Source: Hansfordia pulvinata (lineage: Eukaryota > Ascomycota > Sordariomycetes > Xylariales). From it: a stretch of DNA of 64,000 nt. Shown piece after piece: positions 50,468 to 62,406 of this stretch. Location of the stretch: positions 2,728,001 to 2,792,000 of the forward strand of contig BJKQ01000003.1 in assembly GCA_006538405.1 (NCBI GenBank). Direction: 5' to 3'. Below the pieces are notes generated by a model. The model had not been told where the DNA came from, searched no databases, and worked only from the letters and a program-made list of their open reading frames with translations. Each line of letters starts with the position of its first letter. The stretch's first letter is position 1. The position numbers were made by a program, and so were the translations under genes.

Positions 50468-53400
50468 ATGGAGGGCGCATTCACCCATCTCGGCAATCAC
50501 CTCGTTTCCGACTCGGCCGCCCACATCAACGCCGGCGACGACGACCTCTCCACCATCGGCGACCCCGACGACCGTCTCCTCTACGCGAATGGCGCCAACT
50601 TCCCGGGCCGCGGAGGTGCTGGCTTGAGCAGCAACAGCCCTAAGGCCAGTGCCTCCTCGACCACGCCCCAGCCTGCTGCCGCAGGTCGCAGACGCAACGA
50701 CGATGACGACAACAAGACGGAGAACCCCGAGGACGATGACGACGACGCCGATAGCAACGGTGCAGTGGCACAGATCAATTTCATTCAAACCCTGAGCCTC
50801 ACGGAGCCTCGCACCGAGCAGAACCCTCTTCCCGCCCATGCTTGCGCGTATGTCTAACCCTCTCACGTGTCACCTCTTGCGAGCAAAGAAACTTACCTTC
50901 CCTAGTTACTGTGGTATTCACTCGCCGTCCTCCGTCGTCAAGTGCCTGGCTTGCAACAAGTGGTTCTGCAGCGCCCGTGGAAACGCCAGCTCCGCCCATA
51001 TCGTCAACCACCTTGTCCGCGCCCGCCACAAGGAAGTCCAACTTCACCCCGAGTCGACCCTTGGCGACACAATCCTCGAGTGTTACAACTGCGGTACCAA
51101 GAATGTCTTCCTTCTCGGCTTCATTCCCGCAAAGTCCGACTCTGTTGTTGTCCTCCTCTGTCGCCAGCCCTGTGCAGCCGCATCCTCCTCGAAGGATATG
51201 AACTGGGACATTTCGCGCTGGCAGCCTCTCATTGAGGACCGCATCTTCCTCGAATGGCTCGTCGCGCGCCCCTCAGACCAGGAGCAGGTCCGCGCTCGTC
51301 ACCTCACCCCCAACCAGATCGCGAAGCTCGAGGAGATGTGGAAGGAGAACTCGTCTGCCACGTTCCACGACCTCGAAAAGGCCGCCACCCTCGACGACGA
51401 CCCGCACCCCGTCCTGCTCAAGTACGAAGATCCATTCCAGTACCAGAACATCTTTGGCCCACTCGTCAAGATGGAATCCGACTACGACAAGAAGCTCAAG
51501 GAGGCCCAATCCGAGGAAGGTCTCGTTGTTCGCTGGGACATGGGTCTGAACACCAAGCACCTTGCCAGCTTCACCTTCCCCAAGCTCGAGTCAGGCGATG
51601 TCAAACTTGCCGTCGGCGACGAGATGCGCCTCAAGTATAAGGGCGAGTTGCGTCCCACGTGGGAAGGTGTCGGCTACGTGATCAAGATCCCCAACAACCA
51701 GTCTGACGAGGTCACCCTCGAGCTGCGCAAGACGGGCAACGACAAGTCCATTCCTACCGAGTGCACCCACAACTTCTCTGCCGACTACGTCTGGAAGGCC
51801 ACTTCCTACGACCGCATGCAGGCCGCTATGAAGACCTTTGCCGTCGACGAGATGAGTGTGTCTGGATATATCTTCCACAAGCTGCTCGGCCACGAAGTCG
51901 CCGTTGCGCCCATGAAGACCAACCTGCCTAAGAAGTTCAGCGTTCCTGGTCTCCCAGAGCTCAACAGCAGCCAGATCAGCGCGATCAAGAACGTCTTGTC
52001 CACCCCGCTCAGCTTGATTCAGGGCCCTCCCGGTACCGGCAAGACTGTCACTTCGGCTACGATCATCTACCATCTGGCCAAGATGAACAACGGCCAGGTT
52101 CTCGTTTGCGCCCCTTCCAACGTCGCCGTCGACCAGTTGTGCGAACGCATCAACCTGACCGGACTCAAAGTCGTCCGTCTCACTGCCAAGTCGCGCGAGG
52201 ACGTGGAATCTTCTGTCAGCTTCCTGGCTCTGCACGAACAGGTCCGCATGCTGGACAGCAACCCCGAGCTCATGAAGCTATCTCAGCTCAAGAGCGAACT
52301 TGGCGAGCTGTCTTCGGCCGACGAGAAGAAGTTCAAGCAGCTGACCCGCGCCGCCGAGCGTGAGATTCTGAGCAACGCCGATGTTGTCTGCTGCACGTGT
52401 GTTGGTGCTGGCGACCCGCGCCTGTCCAAGATCAAGTTCCGCAATGTGCTCATTGACGAATCCACCCAGTCAGCCGAGCCCGAGTGCATGATTCCCCTGG
52501 TCCTCGGTTGCAAGCAGGTCGTTCTTGTTGGTGACCACAAGCAGCTTGGTCCTGTTATCATGAACAAGAAGGCCGCCAAGGCAGGACTCAACCAGTCGCT
52601 TTTCGAGCGTCTCGTGCGTCTGCAGTTCACCCCTATCCGCCTCAACATCCAGTACCGCATGCATCCGTGCCTCTCCGAGTTCCCCTCCAACATGTTCTAC
52701 GAGGGCTCTCTGCAGAACGGCGTCTCCGCCCCGAACCGCATCCGCAAAGACGTCGACTTCCCCTGGCCTGTTGGTGAAATGCCCATGATGTTCTGGTCCA
52801 ACCTGGGAAGCGAGGAAATTTCCGCCTCTGGTACCTCCTACCTCAACCGCACAGAGGCTCAGAACGTTGAGAAGATTGTCACGCGCTTCTTCAAGGCTGG
52901 CGTCCGCCCGGGCGACATTGGTGTCATCACCCCGTACGAAGGCCAGCGCAGCTACATCGTCAACACCATGCAGTCCACAGGCTCCTACAAAAAGGAGCAA
53001 TACAAGGAAGTGGAGGTTGCCTCTGTCGATGCTTTCCAGGGTCGTGAGAAGGACTTCATCGTTCTCTCTTGTGTGCGCTCCAACGACAACCAAGGTATCG
53101 GTTTCATGTCGGACCCGCGGCGTCTCAACGTCGCTCTTACCCGTGCCAAGTACGGCCTGGTCATCATCGGTAACCCCAAGGTCCTATCCAAGCACGAGCT
53201 CTGGCACCACTTGCTGGTCCACTTCAAGGAGCGTAAGTGTTTGGTCGAGGGTGTCTTGACCAACCTGCAGACCTCGCTCCTGCAGTTCAGCCGCCCCAAG
53301 AACAGTTTCCGCCAGCGCCTCCAGCAACAGTCCTCTTACGCCCCTAGCGGCTATCCCCAGTCTCGCTCTGGAGGTATGAATGGCCACGGCCAGGACTTCG

Positions 53401-53882
53401 AGGCCGGTTCGATGCTGTCCTATATCCCTGATGATGTTTCGAGTCTTCACAGCTCCGCGTTGGGCGGCGCCGGTATTGCCAACACTGCCTTCCCTCAAGG
53501 TTTCTCCAGCTTCAACCCGGAGCAGTGGCCTGGACTTCCAGGCTTCAACACGGGATCTGCCGGACGCGTGGGCGGGAAGAGGCAAGCCCGTGGCGCTGAG
53601 AGTGTCGCCGGCGAAAGTGTAGCCACGTCTGAATACACTGACGCCAGCTCCAGCGTTATTGGCGCTAAGGGCGTGGGACAGGGAGGTGCCAGCCTTGGTG
53701 CTGGCCTGCAGGACGCCTTCCGTCACCGACCTGCCTCTTATACCCAGAGCGACCGCCTCCGAAGCTTTGTCGAGAGCGCTCGGCCCGGTTACCCCGCTAA
53801 CGGCTACCGACGGCCGTACGACGACGACGAGAAGAGCGTTAGCACCGCGTTTGCAAGCCAAGTTGGCAGCGGATTCGACTGA
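50468..53882 (+). CDS. UPF1: Upf1/NAM7/RENT1 ATP-dependent RNA helicase of nonsense-mediated mRNA decay
   Basis: Two exons, 50468-50847 and 50906-53882, give 1118 aa; the 58-nt intron (GTATGT...TAG) splits the Ala codon of HACA|YCGIH. A disordered acidic N-terminus ([16 protein letters not shown]) precedes the Cys/His domain that binds Upf2 (about residues 126-240: [20 protein letters not shown] ... [14 protein letters not shown]). SF1 helicase motifs: GPPGTGKT (about 500), [10 protein letters not shown] (about 644), [16 protein letters not shown] (about 709), [20 protein letters not shown] and [19 protein letters not shown]. The C-terminal tail (from about 930) is Ser/Gly-rich. It acts in the cytoplasm on premature-stop mRNAs. 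The frame is intact and the length is typical for a filamentous fungus. Confidence 0.97.
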
Positions 53883-55224
53883 TAAGACGACTGACAAGTT
53901 TACGACGACAAGGCTTATATTAAAACTACATGATTCATACGCGATCGACGAATGCTAGGCCGGGCGAGGTCACTTGAGCGTGAGCATCGCACAAGCAGAC
54001 CGGCCTCGACGGCGAGTTGACCACTCAACAGCCGATTGGCAAGCCACACACAAGTTGCTCAGCCTCATGGCCAGCCGCAGGAAGTGCCCTGTCCCATTGC
54101 GGGTCAACATGCAGCGTATCCTTGCGACTCGCCCAGGACGAAGCAGAGTTGCACTCCCGGCCACGCTGCGTCATGCTTTGATGTCGCAATGTCACATCGA
54201 GTGCACCATGGACAGATGTTTGGCGGCCTAGCTATGCAACTGTTTACGAAAATAAGGCGCGAGGCAGTCATAGCGATAATAGGCAGAGTCCTCGAGATGA
54301 GTTGCTTCAGGCGGGCTGCCGGCCATGGCTTTCAAGGCACGGGCTGCCGACTTGCAGCACGCAGCCCGCGCTCCGAAAGGCACTTTTGGACGTCAGTCAT
54401 TAGCTGTGACTTGGACCTGATACTGATACAGGAGATATGAGGTATGTGGCCAGGGGAAGGAAGACACGGGTCTTTGGCCCAAGTCAGGAGAAAAGGGATC
54501 ACGCGCCCATGCGGAGGAAGTAAGGTGACGCGTCCAGCAGTTGTTCGCACATCCATAGTCGCTCATTAATCTACACTCGCTTTCACACACCACGGCACAC
54601 TTTGAGGTGATCGTATTGCCGTTCCCTGGGATGAGCCCCGCGCAAGGCTCTGACCCTGGACATCTAGCCGATGTGCACATGTGAGATCTGCGTCGGGTCT
54701 CGCATGAATGGACCAGCTTTGGGAAGATCCGCAAGTACGAGTATGCACCCACGGCACAGCCTTGACTATCTGTACCTATGGAACGCACCTCTCAGTCAGG
54801 TGTCCCATAGCCGGTCCTGTGATTCGCTCGCGAATGTGCAGAAACTGTCAAATCAGACACGAGGAGGCGCCTCCCTAGACCAGAAGCGAATGGTGAGGCC
54901 AATTTCCCCTCTTCACTAGCCTGCGCGGCAGCCGTGCAATGCTACCCAAACAGAAGGTTAATGCGTCGCCGGCTTGACAGCCACGCCTACTTCCTCGCGA
55001 GACTAAGCGCTCTTCGGCATCGAGGTGCTGCACGACTGCGCCATGTCGACAACTCGGTGCTCACGGAATCATGGCACAGAAGCTCAGAGGAAGGCCCCGG
55101 GTGATGGGCTATGGCAACACGGGCGGCGGGGATCCTTTCGGTGGGAACGAGTTTCCCGGAATGTATTGCATTCTGTTGAGGGCCTAGAGTGTATGTAGTC
55201 GAGTTATCATACATGGACGGTGTG
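53883..55224. other. Intergenic region between upf1 and the amyloid-motif protein gene
   Basis: 1.3 kb, convergent. No gene recognised on either strand, and I see no third member of the NLR cluster here. One TACGAGTA lies at 54736. Confidence 0.55.
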
Positions 55225-55755
55225 CTATTGCTTCCCAAAATTGAACGTTGATCCGGTGAAGCTCGCGCCAGAGAACTGACTCCCACTGCCCGAGTTGATA
55301 TTGTTGGATCCATTGAACGCGTTGTTCATGGTGCCTCCGCCAGTGTTGTAGAAACTGTGCTGCTTCCCGGATGCCGCGATCGAATGATCCAGACTCTTCT
55401 CTGCATCTTGGAGCTCCTTCAAGACGCTGGGGTCGACCTTTGGGTGATTCGATAAAAGCTTCAGCATATTCATGACGAGGTCCTCCAGTCTCTTGCCTCT
55501 TTTGACCAGCTTGTTGTACTGAGCCAGCCTCTGGCTGGCCGGTGCTTGTACCAGGACTGAGACCAGATCGTCGCAATCCATTGCGTCGGTAGCTAGGCCG
55601 TCGGGCAGAGCGCCGCTGACACCTCTAGCGGCCCTCTCCACGAGCAGCAGCTGTTGGCACGCCGACCTGGTTGGCTCGGGAAGCTCCGGGATCATCGTTT
55701 TGCAGGCCTGGCTACAATTGCCTAGAGATGACAGACAGGCGTCGGACGAGGCCAT
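55225..55755 (-). CDS. Putative NLR-partner effector with C-terminal amyloid-signalling motif
   Basis: A single exon encodes 176 aa; the ATG at 55755 is first in frame. Residues 1-130 are predominantly helical with five cysteines (7, 14, 18, 33, 61) and a charged helix pair (about 72-123, including LVKRGKRLEDLVMNMLKLLS and LKELQDAEKSLD). I see no signal peptide or membrane helix and do not recognise the fold; it is shorter than a HeLo domain. Residues 137-176 switch to Gly/Asn/Ser/Phe-rich sequence with roughly 10-residue periodicity, with core NINSGSGSQFSGAS and end FNFGKQ. The segment 142-174 matches residues 18-50 of the adjacent NLR at 20 of 33 positions. In known fungal pairs such a C-terminal motif receives an amyloid template from the NLR and activates a cell-death or enzymatic N-terminal domain. 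That role here is inferred from architecture and adjacency. Confidence 0.78.
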   Translation of the reverse strand: MASSDACLSSLGNCSQACKTMIPELPEPTRSACQQLLLVERAARGVSGALPDGLATDAMDCDDLVSVLVQAPASQRLAQYNKLVKRGKRLEDLVMNMLKLLSNHPKVDPSVLKELQDAEKSLDHSIAASGKQHSFYNTGGGTMNNAFNGSNNINSGSGSQFSGASFTGSTFNFGKQ

Positions 55756-56317
55756 GTTGACTTGACGAGAGGAAGGGACTGTTTAAAAGCGTCAGCATGA
55801 AGGGCACCGCAAGGGCCATCGTTGACGTACTTGTTGTCCTTGCTGGAAGTGGTCGGCCGTGATGATGGTCGACTTGGTCGGGGGACATGACGGTCAAGGT
55901 CAGCGAGTCCTCACGAGAGGGCACCTCGCTCATTTGTATTCCAGCTGGCGCGGTTAGTCGAAAGCGGCTCGGCGAGGATTGGATCGTCCGAAACACACCG
56001 CATGTCAGCCCCATCTCCGGGACGCGACGCTTCGACCAATGGCAATGGAATCAGGCTGCCAGCCACTCACTCGCCAGGGAGGTCTGCACCCTGAAGCGGG
56101 GTTTCTTGGAGATCCCGTCCCTCGTGTCCTTTTCCTACCACCCCGTACTATTGCTCCCCTGTCCCTACACGGCACCAGACGGTGAGAAAAGAGAGCACTG
56201 TTCTTGCCCTGCCGCCAGTTTCCTCCTTCTCGTTGATAATCACCCATTAAAAGCCGTGCGCCAAACGACTTGAGGTCACGTCCCCTGCCAAGGGGATGGC
56301 CTCATCTGCCTTAAACA
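55756..56317. promoter_or_regulatory. Shared divergent promoter of the effector/NLR pair
   Basis: 562 bp separates the two start codons, so both genes must be driven from here. Leader introns are possible on the effector side (GTACGT on the minus strand near 55828, AAACAG near 55782). An out-of-frame ATG at 56296, 22 nt before the NLR start, would open a short overlapping upstream frame and may lower NLR translation. Confidence 0.5.
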
Positions 56318-59300
56318 ATGGAAGAAAGGAGCAACGCCAACCCGGTAAGAGAACGGTGGTACCAACTCAAGTGTCATGGGGTGTCACTAACTCTGGCCGC
56401 TCCCGTATCTCAGTCCTTCGCAAACATCGCCTCGGGATCCCAGCACAACGCTCCCAATGGAACACAGAACATCAACTCCGGTCCTGGCAACCAGTTCTCT
56501 GGTGCTTCAATTCATGCCAGCAATTTCAACTTCTGTGGGTTCAATTATCCGAGCACTCGCCCAGACAATTACTCATCGTTCTGCGCAGACACCCAGGCGG
56601 GCCCGAGCCTGGTCAACAAAACTTTACAATCACTTGCCTTCCCGGAGATGCAACATCGAGCCAGTGACATCGAATCCAAAGCAGCAGCTTCGGGGACCTG
56701 TCGGTGGCTTCTGAGCCAGGAGCCCTATAACAAGTGGTTGGAAGGCAGCCACGGGCTACTGTGGGTGAAGGGTCATCCCGGCTCGGGCAAGTCGACCATG
56801 ATGCACTTCTTGGTGAACCACGCGACGAGAACTTTCCACGAACAGAGACCATCAGTTATCCTGTCCTTCTTTTGCCACAACCGTGGTACCGATCTCCAGA
56901 AATCGCCGAGGGGTTTGTACCGGTCCCTACTGCACCAGCTCCTGAAAACCGACCCCGGATCCTGCTCTGCCGTCACGGACGACTACAAAGACAAAGAGAA
57001 TACGTATGGAGACCATGCAAAGGCTTGGAGCTGGCATTCTCCAGATGTGCAGCGCCATCTCTTCGAGTCCATCGGCCGCGCGCTCGAGACCCACGACGTG
57101 TATGTCTTTGTTGACGCGTTGGACGAATGCGGGGAAGACGATGCTGTCAAAGTGGTGGAAGCTTTCCGGTTGGCGTTGGGGGCAATCACATCCGGTCTTC
57201 CCAACCGTTGTCGGGTTTGCTTTGCCTGTCGTCCCTACCCCGTATTAGAGGCGAAATGCACCCTGGAGATTACGATGCAGGATCACAACCGCGATGATGT
57301 CTCGACCTACGCCACGTATCGATTGGCGTCATCTTCGATCCAGAACGAGTCGCTTGCATCTCTCATCCGAGACAGAGCCCAGGGCATTTTCATGTGGGCT
57401 CGCATGGCTGTGGACAAAGTCCTTGATCTGCAGCGGGAAGGCACTCCACCAGAGAGATTCTGCAGCATCGTGTCAAAGATGTCCCCTGATCTCGCAGTCT
57501 TGTACGAACAGGCGCTGGACCACATGAAGTCAACTCAATCACTGAGGCTGATACAGTGGATCTGTTACAGCAATCGGCCACTGCACCTCGACGAGTGGCG
57601 CTGGGCCATGCTGGTCGAGCCGGGTTCCCCAACCAAAACGATCAACGACTACAAGAACTCGGATGCATATGAGTCGGACGACAGCGCCCTAAGGAACCAA
57701 GTCCGCAAGCTCAGCCATGGGCTTGTGGAAGTCACTGAGCCCAGCGAATATGGGCCAGAGGATTTGCAGTTCATCCATGAATCTGTGAAGGAGTTCTTCC
57801 TTGACAAGGGACTGCCAACCTTGAGCAGAATGGCAGAGGACAAAGACGCTACTCCGGCGGCCACGCATTCGGTACTCCACAACATCTGTGTCTGTTACAT
57901 GATTGTGGTGTCGAACGACCCCAACTTCGACCTTGACAACAATCGCAGCTCACCGTTGGATGACTTTCCGTTTCTGGGTTATGCAGTGTACGCGTTCATA
58001 GCTCATGCGAAACGCTGCGAAGAGTCCGGAGCCTTTCAATTGAACCAGACTCAACTGCTTCTGGACCGCTTTCTCGACATCAAATATCTTTTAAAACATC
58101 AATATGTTGCCGAATTTTTGAAGGACATTGATGTTCTCTTTGGCAATGGTAATATTATTCACTTGTTGGCAGAGGGGGGGCTCTTCGAGACATTGCATGC
58201 CTTGCTCGGAAGCTCTTCGCGAGACATTTCACATCGTCAACCGAGCGGCATTCCTCGCGAGCGGCAGTATCTTGAAGAAATTGACGCTGAGAATGATGCC
58301 GGACAGACGCCCCTATATCTGGCGGTCTTGGGCAGATATGAGGGCTGCGTGGAGTTGTTGGCGAAGTACGGGGCTGACGTAGACCACGTGATGTCCCGGG
58401 GCTTTTACAAAGGTCAGACCGCGTTGATTTGGGCTCTTGAAGGCGAAGACTGGGGAATGATCAGGATTCTCGGCAGGTATGGGGTTCGGATTGACCCAAG
58501 GTCATTGTACGAGTCTGTTGACGACTACAATTGGGATCTTTTGGAAGCACTGGGTGGGAATGAAACAAAGACAGAGAGCTCTGATCTCGAACAGACCCGA
58601 TTGAGACTCCGTCACGATTCAGACGGTGAGGATTGGGAAGAAAGTGTTTCTCTTTTGCGACAGATAGGGCCAAAGCGCATCGACAGGGGCGAGGAGGGGA
58701 TGCCGCTACTGCATCTGGTCTGCTCTGTGCACGACCCGTCGACGGCAAGGATGCTTCTTGCAGCAGGATGGCAAATCGGTGAGTTGGATGACAGCGGGTG
58801 TGGAGTGCTTTGCCATGTCATGAATCCACGGTGGGGCTGGGGATATGCCGACGAGGAAGAATTTGACGAGCTTGTCCGGGTGCTTGTACAAGAAGGGGCG
58901 CAATGGCAGAACGAGTGGCCACAGTTGTTTGAGAGCTGTGTCGACCACAAAGGGAAAGTCAAGATCCGGGCAGTCAAGGCCCTGGTGGATGCGGGTGTTC
59001 CGGCCAACGAGCTTCTGATAGGAGCGTGTGCCGAAGTCGATCCAGCAGCAGAGAGTTTGTACAAGTTCGTAGGCTTGCTCCTCGAGTACGGAGCTGACTG
59101 CAACTTCGAAGACGGACATGGCAGGACTGCACTGATATGCGCTTGTCGGAACGCGAATGTAGACCTGGTCCACATTCTTCTGCAGAATTGCGCAAATCCA
59201 ATCGCACGGAACAGGGACGGGAAGACGCCGAGGATGGCCCTGCCATCAGTCTCTAGTGCTGAGTTATTGGGGAACCGGGAGACCGCCAAACGTCACGCTA

Positions 59301-59362
59301 GGATTCGCAGGTTGTTGCATACGTATGGAGATTGGAGCGACTCGGGAGGGGAAGCGATATAG
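56318..59362 (+). CDS. NACHT-ankyrin NLR with N-terminal amyloid-signalling motif
   Basis: Exon 1 is 56318-56344 (9 codons). A 69-nt intron follows (56345-56413, GTAAGA, branch CACTAAC, TCTCAG; no in-frame stop), then exon 2, 56414-59362; 991 aa spliced. The N-terminus is MEERSNANP|SFANIASG. Residues 18-50 then form a Gly/Asn/Ser/Gln-rich motif (core NINSGPGNQFSGAS, then FNF) matching the C-terminus of the divergent neighbour. A NACHT NTPase follows: P-loop GHPGSGKST (about 129-137), Walker B VYVFVDALDECGEDD (about 238-252), then the fungal NLR winged-helix region (IQWICYSNRPLHLDEWRWAM, LQFIHESVKEFFLD). C-terminal ankyrin-type repeats include AGQTPLYLAVLGRYEGCVEL (about 638) and HGRTALICACRNANVDLVHI (about 910). 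By family it is a cytosolic STAND receptor that oligomerises on ligand sensing. The motif would pass the signal to the partner. The frame is intact. Confidence 0.88.
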   Translation: MEERSNANPVRERWYQLKCHGVSLTLAAPVSQSFANIASGSQHNAPNGTQNINSGPGNQFSGASIHASNFNFCGFNYPSTRPDNYSSFCADTQAGPSLVNKTLQSLAFPEMQHRASDIESKAAASGTCRWLLSQEPYNKWLEGSHGLLWVKGHPGSGKSTMMHFLVNHATRTFHEQRPSVILSFFCHNRGTDLQKSPRGLYRSLLHQLLKTDPGSCSAVTDDYKDKENTYGDHAKAWSWHSPDVQRHLFESIGRALETHDVYVFVDALDECGEDDAVKVVEAFRLALGAITSGLPNRCRVCFACRPYPVLEAKCTLEITMQDHNRDDVSTYATYRLASSSIQNESLASLIRDRAQGIFMWARMAVDKVLDLQREGTPPERFCSIVSKMSPDLAVLYEQALDHMKSTQSLRLIQWICYSNRPLHLDEWRWAMLVEPGSPTKTINDYKNSDAYESDDSALRNQVRKLSHGLVEVTEPSEYGPEDLQFIHESVKEFFLDKGLPTLSRMAEDKDATPAATHSVLHNICVCYMIVVSNDPNFDLDNNRSSPLDDFPFLGYAVYAFIAHAKRCEESGAFQLNQTQLLLDRFLDIKYLLKHQYVAEFLKDIDVLFGNGNIIHLLAEGGLFETLHALLGSSSRDISHRQPSGIPRERQYLEEIDAENDAGQTPLYLAVLGRYEGCVELLAKYGADVDHVMSRGFYKGQTALIWALEGEDWGMIRILGRYGVRIDPRSLYESVDDYNWDLLEALGGNETKTESSDLEQTRLRLRHDSDGEDWEESVSLLRQIGPKRIDRGEEGMPLLHLVCSVHDPSTARMLLAAGWQIGELDDSGCGVLCHVMNPRWGWGYADEEEFDELVRVLVQEGAQWQNEWPQLFESCVDHKGKVKIRAVKALVDAGVPANELLIGACAEVDPAAESLYKFVGLLLEYGADCNFEDGHGRTALICACRNANVDLVHILLQNCANPIARNRDGKTPRMALPSVSSAELLGNRETAKRHARIRRLLHTYGDWSDSGGEAI

Positions 59363-60111
59363 GGAGAATCAACATGTCGGACTCTTGACGAGATGGGCGC
59401 CTAGTGACCGACACGGCGGATGAGAGATGGACCTGGCCGAGTGTATTGCATATCTCCTTACCTAAGTACATATTATCCGTACATGCAGTCGTAGATGGCA
59501 CGATCTTGCTCAACATCGGCGGTCGAGTTGAGAGGTGGTGGCTAAACCGGTAGAGGAATAGATTCATTGGGAGCAAGGCGACCGGATCGGAAGCCGGGGT
59601 GCGTCGAGTCAGCGAAAGCGTTGCGATCCGTCGGCAACGGTGGCGTTGGATCCTGAATGCTGACATACATTCCTCCTACAACCAACGTCTTCTGTCCTGC
59701 CGGGCGCCTTTGCACCACGGCCGCGCACGCTTCTTCCTCTCTACAATTCCAGTTGCCCCTGCGGGCGGAACCATTTCCATTCCCGGCTTCTTGAATCTGT
59801 CTCAGCACACCGACCAGTACAGCGCACCTAGGAAACGACCACCAAGGACCTATCTAAGGTACTCGTACTGCGCACCCATCACGAGCACTCTGGCCCACGA
59901 GCCGCCACCCGCCCACATCGTCGTCGTCGTCGGCTACCGCACTTTGGACCTCCTGCGCCTACGCGCGCCCTGTGCGACCGACGGGCACAGGCAAGGCCTA
60001 CGATTATTCTTGGCCCAGCACCGACAGCCTGGCTGGCACGGCCCATCTGCACCCGCACCCAATCTACATGGAGCCCTCGAGCCCGTAACCCACCCCGCGT
60101 TCAACCCAGCA
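59363..60111. other. Intergenic: NLR 3' flank and amidohydrolase promoter
   Basis: 750 bp. The amidohydrolase frame is open back to 59599 but contains no convincing earlier ATG, and its sequence there is not protein-like. It contains TACCTAAG (59460) and TACTCGTA (59860). No separate gene. Confidence 0.6.
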
Positions 60112-62406
60112 ATGGCCCGGCCGTGGTCCTCGCCGGGTTCGTCCCCGCGCCCCCGCACCACAGCAACCGCCCTCGCCGCCGTCGTCCTGCTCTGCGCCCT
60201 CGCCGCCGTCGACGCCGCCTGCACCGTCACCCACGACGGCAGCCCCCAGCAGCGCCCCGCCCGCGACCTCGTCCTGCGCGGCACCCTGCTGACCCCCCAC
60301 GGCGCCCAGCCCCACAGCCAGCTGCTCATCCGCCACGGCCGCATCGCCTCCATCTGGTACGCCACCTGCGTCCCCGACAGCGCCCGCCAGAAGGCCCGCG
60401 ACCTCTTCCTCGCCGACCAGCGCAGCCCCTCCTCCGCCTCCTCCGATGACCCCGCCACCACCATCATCGACTGCGACCCGGCCGACGTCATCAGCCCCGG
60501 CTTCATCAACACCCACGAGCACATCACCTTCTCCACCACCCCGCCCATCACCCTCGACGACGACACCACCACCGCCACCACTCACAAGAACCGCCAGTAC
60601 GCCCACCGCCACGACTGGCGCGTCGGCGCCCGCGGCCACGACCCCATCCGCCTCCCCGAGCCCCCCGCCGACCTCCAGTCCGCCGCCAGCGCCTGGGGCG
60701 AGCTGCGCCACCTCTTCAGCGGCACCACCTCCATCCTCGGCAGCGGCGCCGGCGGCGGCTTCCCCGCCGGCCTCATCCGCAACCTCGACTCCGCCGACGG
60801 CCTGCTCTTCGGCCGCGACGACGTCCTCTTCGCCAAGGGCGACGACGACCCCGACCTCGGCGCCGCCGGCTCCCCCTCCGTCTCCGTCGCCGCCGCCGCC
60901 TGGGACACCTTCCCCCTCGACGACGCCGCCGGGGGCCTGCGCACCGCCGACTGCGACTACGGCCCCGACCCCGCCGCCTCCGCCGGCGCCGCCGCCCGCC
61001 AGAACCGCTACGTCGCCCACGTCGCCGAGGGCGTCGACGCCGCCGCCCGCAACGAGTTCCGCTGCCTGTCCGACGCCAACTACGACACCACCCCGTCCTC
61101 ACCGCTGCGGAGGCGCGCGCCCGTCGGCGAGAGCAGCGCCGTGTCCGGCAAGAAGCGCGGCGGCACGGCGGGCCTCAGCACGGACCTGCTCGGCCCCAAC
61201 TTCGCCATGGTGCACGCCCTGGGGCTCAACAGGGCCGACTGGGAGCTCGCGGCGCGGCGCGGCGCCGGCGTCGTCTGGAGCCCCCGCAGCAACGCCTTCC
61301 TGTACGGGGGCCGCACGCTCGACGCCGAGGCCCTCCTGCGCCTGCAGCGCGAGGAGCAAGGGACGCCCGCGGCGGTGGCCGCCGCCGCCCGGCGCGGGAA
61401 GAAGGGCTCGCGAGCCGGGGGGCAGACGCACAAACGTAAGGGGGGCGGCGGGAGCACCAGCGAAGACAGCGACGCGGAGCAGCAGAAGAAGATGAAGGAC
61501 TCGGACAGCCCCGACGGGCTCGGCCTGGGCCTCGGCCCCGTGGCCCTCGGCACCGACTGGCTGCCCACGGGGTCCGCCACCATGGGCCGCGAGGCGGCGT
61601 GCGCGCGGGCCGCGGCGCCGGGCCTGTCGGCGCGCCAGGTCTGGACCATGATGACGGGGGCCGCGGCCGAGGTCGCGGGCTTCGGCGGCGGCGTGCTGGG
61701 CGTGCTGGACAAGGGCGCCGTCGCCGACATTGTCATCTTCTCGCCTGTCAAGGGCGGCAGCGGCGGCAGCGACAGCAGCAGCAGCAGCAGTGGAGGAGGG
61801 GCAGGAGGAGGAGGAGGAGGAAAGACGAGGCCGAAACGCGAATTTACAAAGAAGCCCGACACCCCCTCGAGCTCCGATAGGGCGCGCGAGGAGACGGCCT
61901 ACGCGACGGCGATCCACGGCCCGCCCGAGGCCATCCAGCTCGTCCTGCGGGGCGGGCGGCCCATGCTGGCGGCGCCCGAGGTCGCGCGCGGCCTGGGCAT
62001 GCGCGTGATGCCGACGTCGGCCACGGAGGCCGCCGGGGGCGGCGGCAGCGGCACCACCAAGGGCGAGGTGAGCGGCGGCAGCAGCGGCGGCGGCGGCGGA
62101 AGGGGCCGCAGGAAGAAGCAGAAGAGCAAGGTGGAGGCGCGCGACTGGCCCGTGCAGCACCAGCAGGGCGAGGGCCGGTGCGAGGAGATTGCGTTCGGGC
62201 CCGGGGCGACCAAGGTGGCGTGCGTCGCGGACGACCTGCGCGACGGCAAGGGCGGCGGGTTCGAGTCGTACCGGGCGCTGGAGCGGGCGCTGCAGTCGGC
62301 GGCGGCGAGCGGCAGCGGCAGCGGCGGAGAGCTGTACCCGGCCGTGCTGCCGGGGGTGCCGCCGGGCGAGCCGCCGTGCGAGGTGGTGCGGACCGGGTGG
62401 TCGTGA
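60112..62406 (+). CDS. Secreted metal-dependent amidohydrolase (ATZ/TRZ-like)
   Basis: A single exon encodes 764 aa. The ATG at 60112 is chosen because it opens a signal peptide whose hydrophobic core is ALAAVVLLCALAAVDA. Amidohydrolase features in order: N-terminal beta part (DLVLRGTLLTPHGAQP..LLIRHGRIASIW); metal ligands HxH in GFINTHEHITFS; GELRHLFSGTTSILGSG; His in RYVAHVAEGVDAAARNEF; GPNFAMVHALGLNRADWELA; WSPRSNAFLYG; the catalytic Asp in ALGTDWLPTGSATMGREAA; and the returning C-terminal strand KGAVADIVIFSPVKG. The family hydrolyses C-N bonds of cyclic or aromatic amides. The substrate is unknown, and secretion suggests an external one. Two low-complexity insertions (about residues 420-465 Lys/Gly/Ser, 550-590 Gly/Ser) and a Gly-rich stretch near 645-675 are unusual. 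Third-position GC is extreme. Confidence 0.82.
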   Translation: MARPWSSPGSSPRPRTTATALAAVVLLCALAAVDAACTVTHDGSPQQRPARDLVLRGTLLTPHGAQPHSQLLIRHGRIASIWYATCVPDSARQKARDLFLADQRSPSSASSDDPATTIIDCDPADVISPGFINTHEHITFSTTPPITLDDDTTTATTHKNRQYAHRHDWRVGARGHDPIRLPEPPADLQSAASAWGELRHLFSGTTSILGSGAGGGFPAGLIRNLDSADGLLFGRDDVLFAKGDDDPDLGAAGSPSVSVAAAAWDTFPLDDAAGGLRTADCDYGPDPAASAGAAARQNRYVAHVAEGVDAAARNEFRCLSDANYDTTPSSPLRRRAPVGESSAVSGKKRGGTAGLSTDLLGPNFAMVHALGLNRADWELAARRGAGVVWSPRSNAFLYGGRTLDAEALLRLQREEQGTPAAVAAAARRGKKGSRAGGQTHKRKGGGGSTSEDSDAEQQKKMKDSDSPDGLGLGLGPVALGTDWLPTGSATMGREAACARAAAPGLSARQVWTMMTGAAAEVAGFGGGVLGVLDKGAVADIVIFSPVKGGSGGSDSSSSSSGGGAGGGGGGKTRPKREFTKKPDTPSSSDRAREETAYATAIHGPPEAIQLVLRGGRPMLAAPEVARGLGMRVMPTSATEAAGGGGSGTTKGEVSGGSSGGGGGRGRRKKQKSKVEARDWPVQHQQGEGRCEEIAFGPGATKVACVADDLRDGKGGGFESYRALERALQSAAASGSGSGGELYPAVLPGVPPGEPPCEVVRTGWS

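Follow-up and report, generated by a model that had tools for sequence, protein, structure and literature searches.

Sigma-motif loci combining sesA and STAND genes have been on record since 2012 (PMC3321046), so that the novelty implied in a preliminary description of the locus analysed here is not supported. According to the cited sections of that paper, the sigma motif consists of three repeats of two submotifs, A (GxGxQFNxx) and B (GGTQNINT). The het-eN/sesA genes of Nectria haematococca have the same architecture as the locus below, including an overlooked 5′ intron in the NLR gene (PMC3321046). Loci without sesA or sesB and with varied gene orders are on record in the same source, where a role for the NLR was proposed from sequence and unpublished fibril formation by the het-eN sigma peptide is mentioned (PMC3321046). 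The SesA gene of N. haematococca is a 210-codon ORF, and described SesA proteins range from 201 to 214 codons (PMC516043). An insertion mutant of SesA made no sigma element and was not contaminable by it, from which the authors concluded that the sigma element probably requires SesA in order to be produced and transmitted (PMC516043). In the cited part of that study, the N. haematococca Ses locus as assigned from the functional analysis comprises SesA and SesB only and does not include the NLR. Sigma motifs can be numerous: 17 were counted in one Fusarium oxysporum strain (PMC12261475, as far as the cited section goes).

We analysed a window of 64,000 nucleotides from the filamentous ascomycete Hansfordia pulvinata (contig BJKQ01000003.1), the whole stretch of DNA to which the following positions refer. 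Two adjacent genes in it carry sigma motifs, and they are oriented divergently, head to head, with start codons 562 bp apart according to the ORF coordinates. The features of this pair and of the two large genes that flank it are as follows.

50838-53882, plus strand: UPF1 RNA helicase gene, flanking the pair and ordinary in appearance
55225..55755, minus strand: effector gene, a 176-aa ORF with a SesA-like helical domain and a C-terminal sigma motif (ORF list, Pfam)
55237..55356, minus strand: C-terminal sigma motif of the effector, residues 134-173, with A-B-A type repeats (PF17106, motif alignment)
55363..55755, minus strand: predicted six-helix domain of the effector, residues 1-131 (structure model, Pfam)
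55831..55933, minus strand: candidate first exon of the effector with an ATG at 55933 and an in-frame join, equally possible as 5′ UTR
56318..59362, plus strand: NLR gene encoding sigma motif, NACHT (NPHP3_N) and ankyrin repeats, 991 aa when spliced (ORF list, Pfam)
56345-56413, plus strand: predicted 69-bp intron between the NLR start codon and the sigma motif, with canonical-looking fungal signals (GTAAGA...CTAAC...CAG)
56414..56533, plus strand: N-terminal sigma motif of the NLR, spliced residues 10-49, with A-B-A type repeats (PF17106, motif alignment)
56693..57232, plus strand: NACHT-type NTPase (NPHP3_N, PF24883, E-value of 5.2e-32)
59063..59230, plus strand: top-scoring of the three ankyrin stretches (Ank_2) in the C-terminal repeat region (Pfam)
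60112-62406: amidohydrolase-family gene, flanking the pair and ordinary in appearance, with a very high third-position GC of 0.958

The motifs, the domains, the adjacency of the genes and their divergent arrangement are observed at the locus. We consider it very likely that the two genes form an amyloid signalling pair of the sigma type, with the signalling logic of such a pair. Like the N. haematococca ses locus (SesA/SesB/Het-eN), the locus encodes a NACHT-ankyrin NLR whose N-terminal sigma motif lies behind a 5′ intron, here a predicted one, next to a small protein in which a probable SesA domain is combined with a sigma motif at the C-terminus, and the motifs share the A/B repeat pattern (cited sections of PMC3321046). 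Unlike the ses locus, it has a shorter and divergent effector, its genes lie head to head and no SesB lipase was seen adjoining. The latter follows from the large flanking genes being UPF1 and the amidohydrolase and from the absence of any Pfam family (0 each) in 10 smaller ORFs around the pair (54987-61736), which are 10 of the 14 listed ORFs that had previously gone unscanned.

The combination of an NLR bearing an N-terminal motif with a neighbour bearing a C-terminal one also recalls HET-S/NWD2 of Podospora anserina, but motif family and effector domain are different: neither the HET-s motif PF11558 (maximum E-value of 10, HMMER filters on) nor PF14479 had a Pfam match in the NLR or the effector. 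Amyloid signalling links an NLR to helical or lipase effectors in the HELLP/SBP/PNT1 system as well, but the PP motif of that system (PF17046, called a misnamed SesB in the cited part of PMC12261475) had no Pfam match in either protein of the pair. In the GDQN pair of F. oxysporum, a SesA-associated protein and a probable NLR likewise have a common motif (cited part of PMC12261475), but the GDQN motif follows another pattern, and the present pair matches sigma.

Profile searches with both motifs pointed to sigma, one of the candidate classes that had been named beforehand. The profile HMM PF17106 (NACHT_sigma) matched the N-terminus of the full unspliced NLR ORF with 32.2 bits, above the curated cut-off of 27.6, and the effector C-terminus with 23 bits (E-value of 8.7e-5), below this cut-off. 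By inspection, the NLR repeats read SGSQHNAP / NGTQNINS / GPGNQFSGA in A-B-A order. The effector repeats, GGGTMNNAF / NGSNNINS / GSGSQFSGA, meet this order loosely: the first A repeat is degenerate, with Met replacing Gln, and the remaining motif is intact. The preliminary description had placed the NLR motif at residues 18-50; the motif is present, and this numbering is valid only once the predicted intron is removed. Splicing shortens the ORF from 1014 to 991 aa and leaves nine residues, followed directly by the sigma motif. The spliced 150-aa N-terminal piece scored 36.4 bits with PF17106, a gain that is at most suggestive, since the query lengths differ.

The Pfam content of the NLR comprises sigma, a NACHT-type NTPase and ankyrin, with no effector domain. 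A homologue search with the NLR found 2,273 proteins, of which the best 120 share 28-41% identity with it and are mostly NACHT-ankyrin proteins. According to by-eye counts of precomputed annotation, PF17106 is present in 39 of these best 120, with 26 of the 39 from Fusarium; the 81 proteins without it include the top match, P0001. A protein of Gaeumannomyces hyphopodioides, P0071, contains SesA, a Gly-rich linker, NACHT and ankyrin repeats in a single chain. It is 32% identical to the NLR over 72% of the latter and corresponds to the two-gene arrangement in naturally fused form.

Within the 46.8-Mb genome, sigma motifs were found in four places, namely the effector and NLR of the pair and two further NLRs on contigs C10 and C13. 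Searches of the genome with the C10 and C13 motifs identified 2 and 4 places, respectively, all among these four, and the own-genome searches with sigma motifs detected no further sigma effector, either near the C10 and C13 NLRs or elsewhere. As the motif searches are intron-blind and score the best candidates only, an intron-split motif would be missed; within this scope, the effector described here is the only candidate partner found. The SesA family had no match at an E-value of 0.1 or lower in the six genome frames, but this search also missed the window's own effector and is thus insensitive to divergent members. For the SesB/PP family (PF17046), the best E-value in the genome was 2.54, on C5. 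Apart from sigma motifs, the own-genome search with the effector had one weak match, on C16 (E-value of 0.095, 28% over 62-161), which lies in a 694-residue Ser/Pro/Gln-rich frame and was rejected as chance by eye. The additional amyloid-type genes of the genome are as follows.

C10:412296: sigma-NACHT-ankyrin NLR, with the motif in a short separate exon-like frame and the NACHT-ankyrin ORF adjoining
C13:154159: sigma-NACHT-ankyrin NLR, with the motif in a short separate exon-like frame and the NACHT-ankyrin ORF adjoining
C1:1134561-1135375: gene with a HeLo domain (two exon-like pieces) and a HET-s prion-forming motif (PF11558, E-value of 6e-12)
C1 piece L012, 3-608, minus strand: divergent NACHT-like gene beside the HeLo gene, its start resembling a HET-s motif by eye

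The only genomic match to PF11558 at an E-value of 1 or lower is that on C1, and judging by their sequences the two C1 genes look like a HET-S/NWD2-type pair. Given the presence of these HeLo/HET-s and NACHT-like genes, this fungus may have two amyloid pathways operating side by side. The co-existence of different HET-s-related families within one species has been reported (cited part of PMC5485727). On C13, a long ORF has a weak HeLo-like start (PF17111, 147400-147882), separated by some 2.7 kb from the stop codon of the sigma-NLR; PF17111 was the only Pfam match in the 660 residues of this ORF that were scanned.

The effector gene may have a further exon upstream. The candidate exon would join the ORF in frame across a putative intron of 52 bp (55830-55779) with canonical-looking signals (GTACGT...CTGAC...CAG), giving a protein of 218 instead of 176 aa; no hydrophobic helix encoded by it was found by eye. 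In the structure prediction, the modelled helical bundle stops where the low-confidence motif tail starts, and one of the five models was confident (74.0 versus 40.3-46.1). SesA (PF17107) matched effector residues 56-101 with a library-corrected E-value of 0.0054 and 17.3 bits, below the cut-off of 26.3, and the match spans profile positions 71-119 of 122, which is the C-terminal half. With this match and the modelled bundle, the partner domain that the preliminary description could not recognise can be given a tentative name: it is probably a divergent SesA-like (HeLo-like) domain. Its SesA identity is not proven, given how short and divergent it is and that a single protein search (147 candidates, none at an E-value of 1 or lower) provided no homologue.

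Foldseek with the effector model returned 353 matches at an E-value of 10 or lower, none at 0.001 or lower, with a best E-value of 0.31. The VIA-align rows include MLKL and plant CC domains, which are indistinguishable there from generic helical bundles. An NCBIfam search yielded 0 families, and a PDB sequence search yielded two rows, both trypsin inhibitors (E-values of 0.32 and 0.47). Short sigma proteins were also sought using the natural NLR fragment, with no candidate having three shared words. The first predicted helix of the effector (residues 4-24) is weakly hydrophobic and weakly amphipathic, and over the three leading 18-residue windows of the protein the mean Eisenberg hydrophobicity lies between 0.09 and 0.14.

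The 176-aa minus-strand protein ending in a Gly/Asn/Ser/Gln/Phe motif is present as described (ORF at 55755-55225), and the 20 of 33 identities claimed for it and the NLR were reproduced. The best ungapped register aligns effector residues 141-173 with spliced NLR residues 17-49 and has 21 of 33 positions identical; the earlier register is the identical alignment shifted one residue onward. Since both tails are compositionally biased, their likeness might be mere low-complexity Gly/Asn/Ser sequence. Against this, the best ungapped 33-mer in 2,000 composition-preserving shuffles of both tails had at most 12 identities. An HMM of 11 sigma motifs from other fungi, which were taken from the PF17106-bearing NLR relatives and whose rows came from an alignment built jointly with this genome's four sigma motifs, scored 42.8 bits for the NLR and 22.1 bits for the effector, whereas 20,000 shuffled tails scored 16.1 bits at most. 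When this HMM was run against the 1,265 six-frame ORFs of the window, the only window ORFs among the 12 best matches listed were the NLR and effector genes. The shuffles and the HMM thus show a similarity beyond shared composition; together with the Pfam matches they contradict a chance low-complexity resemblance, which we rejected as having next to no probability. The effector motif is identical to that of the neighbouring NLR in 24 of 40 positions. With 13 other sigma motifs it shares fewer, between 13 and 19 of 39, and the C10 and C13 NLRs account for two of these values (16/39 and 17/39). Of 15 aligned motifs, those of this pair alone have an additional residue directly preceding the final Phe. 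A strict reading of this closeness is countered by P0002, whose motif matches that of the NLR nearly as well (23/39) as the effector's does. We give little credence to a decayed or non-functional pair, with a truncated SesA remnant as effector and an NLR that signals elsewhere or to no effector at all. While the 176-aa ORF is shorter than the SesA proteins described in the cited part of PMC516043 and its motif has diverged in the first repeat, the motif is otherwise intact and the candidate in-frame 5′ exon would lengthen the protein to 218 aa. The effector frame is open, with GC by codon position (0.537/0.446/0.701) resembling the neighbouring UPF1 gene (0.58/0.423/0.752) and NLR (0.575/0.417/0.627), and the intron-blind searches detected no other sigma effector in the genome.

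A real sigma pair would be compatible with a helical domain other than SesA, that is, an unrelated small helical domain recruited to a sigma tail, with the output of an adaptor, a regulator or a scaffold and not that of a membrane killer. We think this unlikely, though seriously in play. It is consistent with the sub-threshold and partial SesA match, the first helix that is not strongly hydrophobic, the lack of a homologue in the one protein search and the non-specific structure matches, but the library-corrected E-value was obtained for exactly the domain expected beside a sigma motif, and the structural rows include MLKL and plant CC domains, with values that helical bundles commonly reach. 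P0071, the sole SesA-domain protein compared, provided a weak 26-column match to the effector (E-value of 0.027 for that single comparison). The local alignment with its SesA domain is not collinear (8.55% of shuffles equal it), which would fit an unrelated domain, whereas the global alignment has the helices in collinear order and is marginal (2.75% of 2,000 shuffles equal it). The structure prediction of P0071 has a mean pLDDT of 48.5, with about 40-60 in the SesA part, too low to be of use for comparison. A bolder proposal, to which we give very little credence, is that the domain represents a distinct shortened class outside SesA/HeLo, without a pore-forming first helix, and is a common sigma adaptor on which the three sigma-NLRs (C3, C10 and C13) converge.

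The reading of the locus as an NLR/effector amyloid signalosome, as first proposed, is the best supported, with PF17106 in both proteins and the genes adjacent. Taking HET-S/NWD2 and the ses locus as models, we infer amyloid formation, membrane activity and a biological role in signalling and cell death. The NLR would sense a trigger via its ankyrin repeats, bind nucleotide and oligomerise, thereby gathering N-terminal sigma motifs and nucleating the amyloid fold. This fold would template the same motif at the effector C-terminus, and templating of the tail would release or cluster the helical domain, which is probably SesA-like. The domain may then act on membranes, leading to cell death or to a self-propagating cytoplasmic state.

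The basic system has already been described, and the locus adds to it a pair of the sigma type whose effector is divergent and probably SesA-like. If the proposal of a common sigma adaptor were true, this effector would be a hub and not a dedicated executioner. As the genome also has a HET-S/NWD2-like pair and two sigma-NLRs for which no effector was detected, it can serve to test how specific the signals of parallel amyloid pathways are. The pair can also be used to ask whether one effector serves several receptors.
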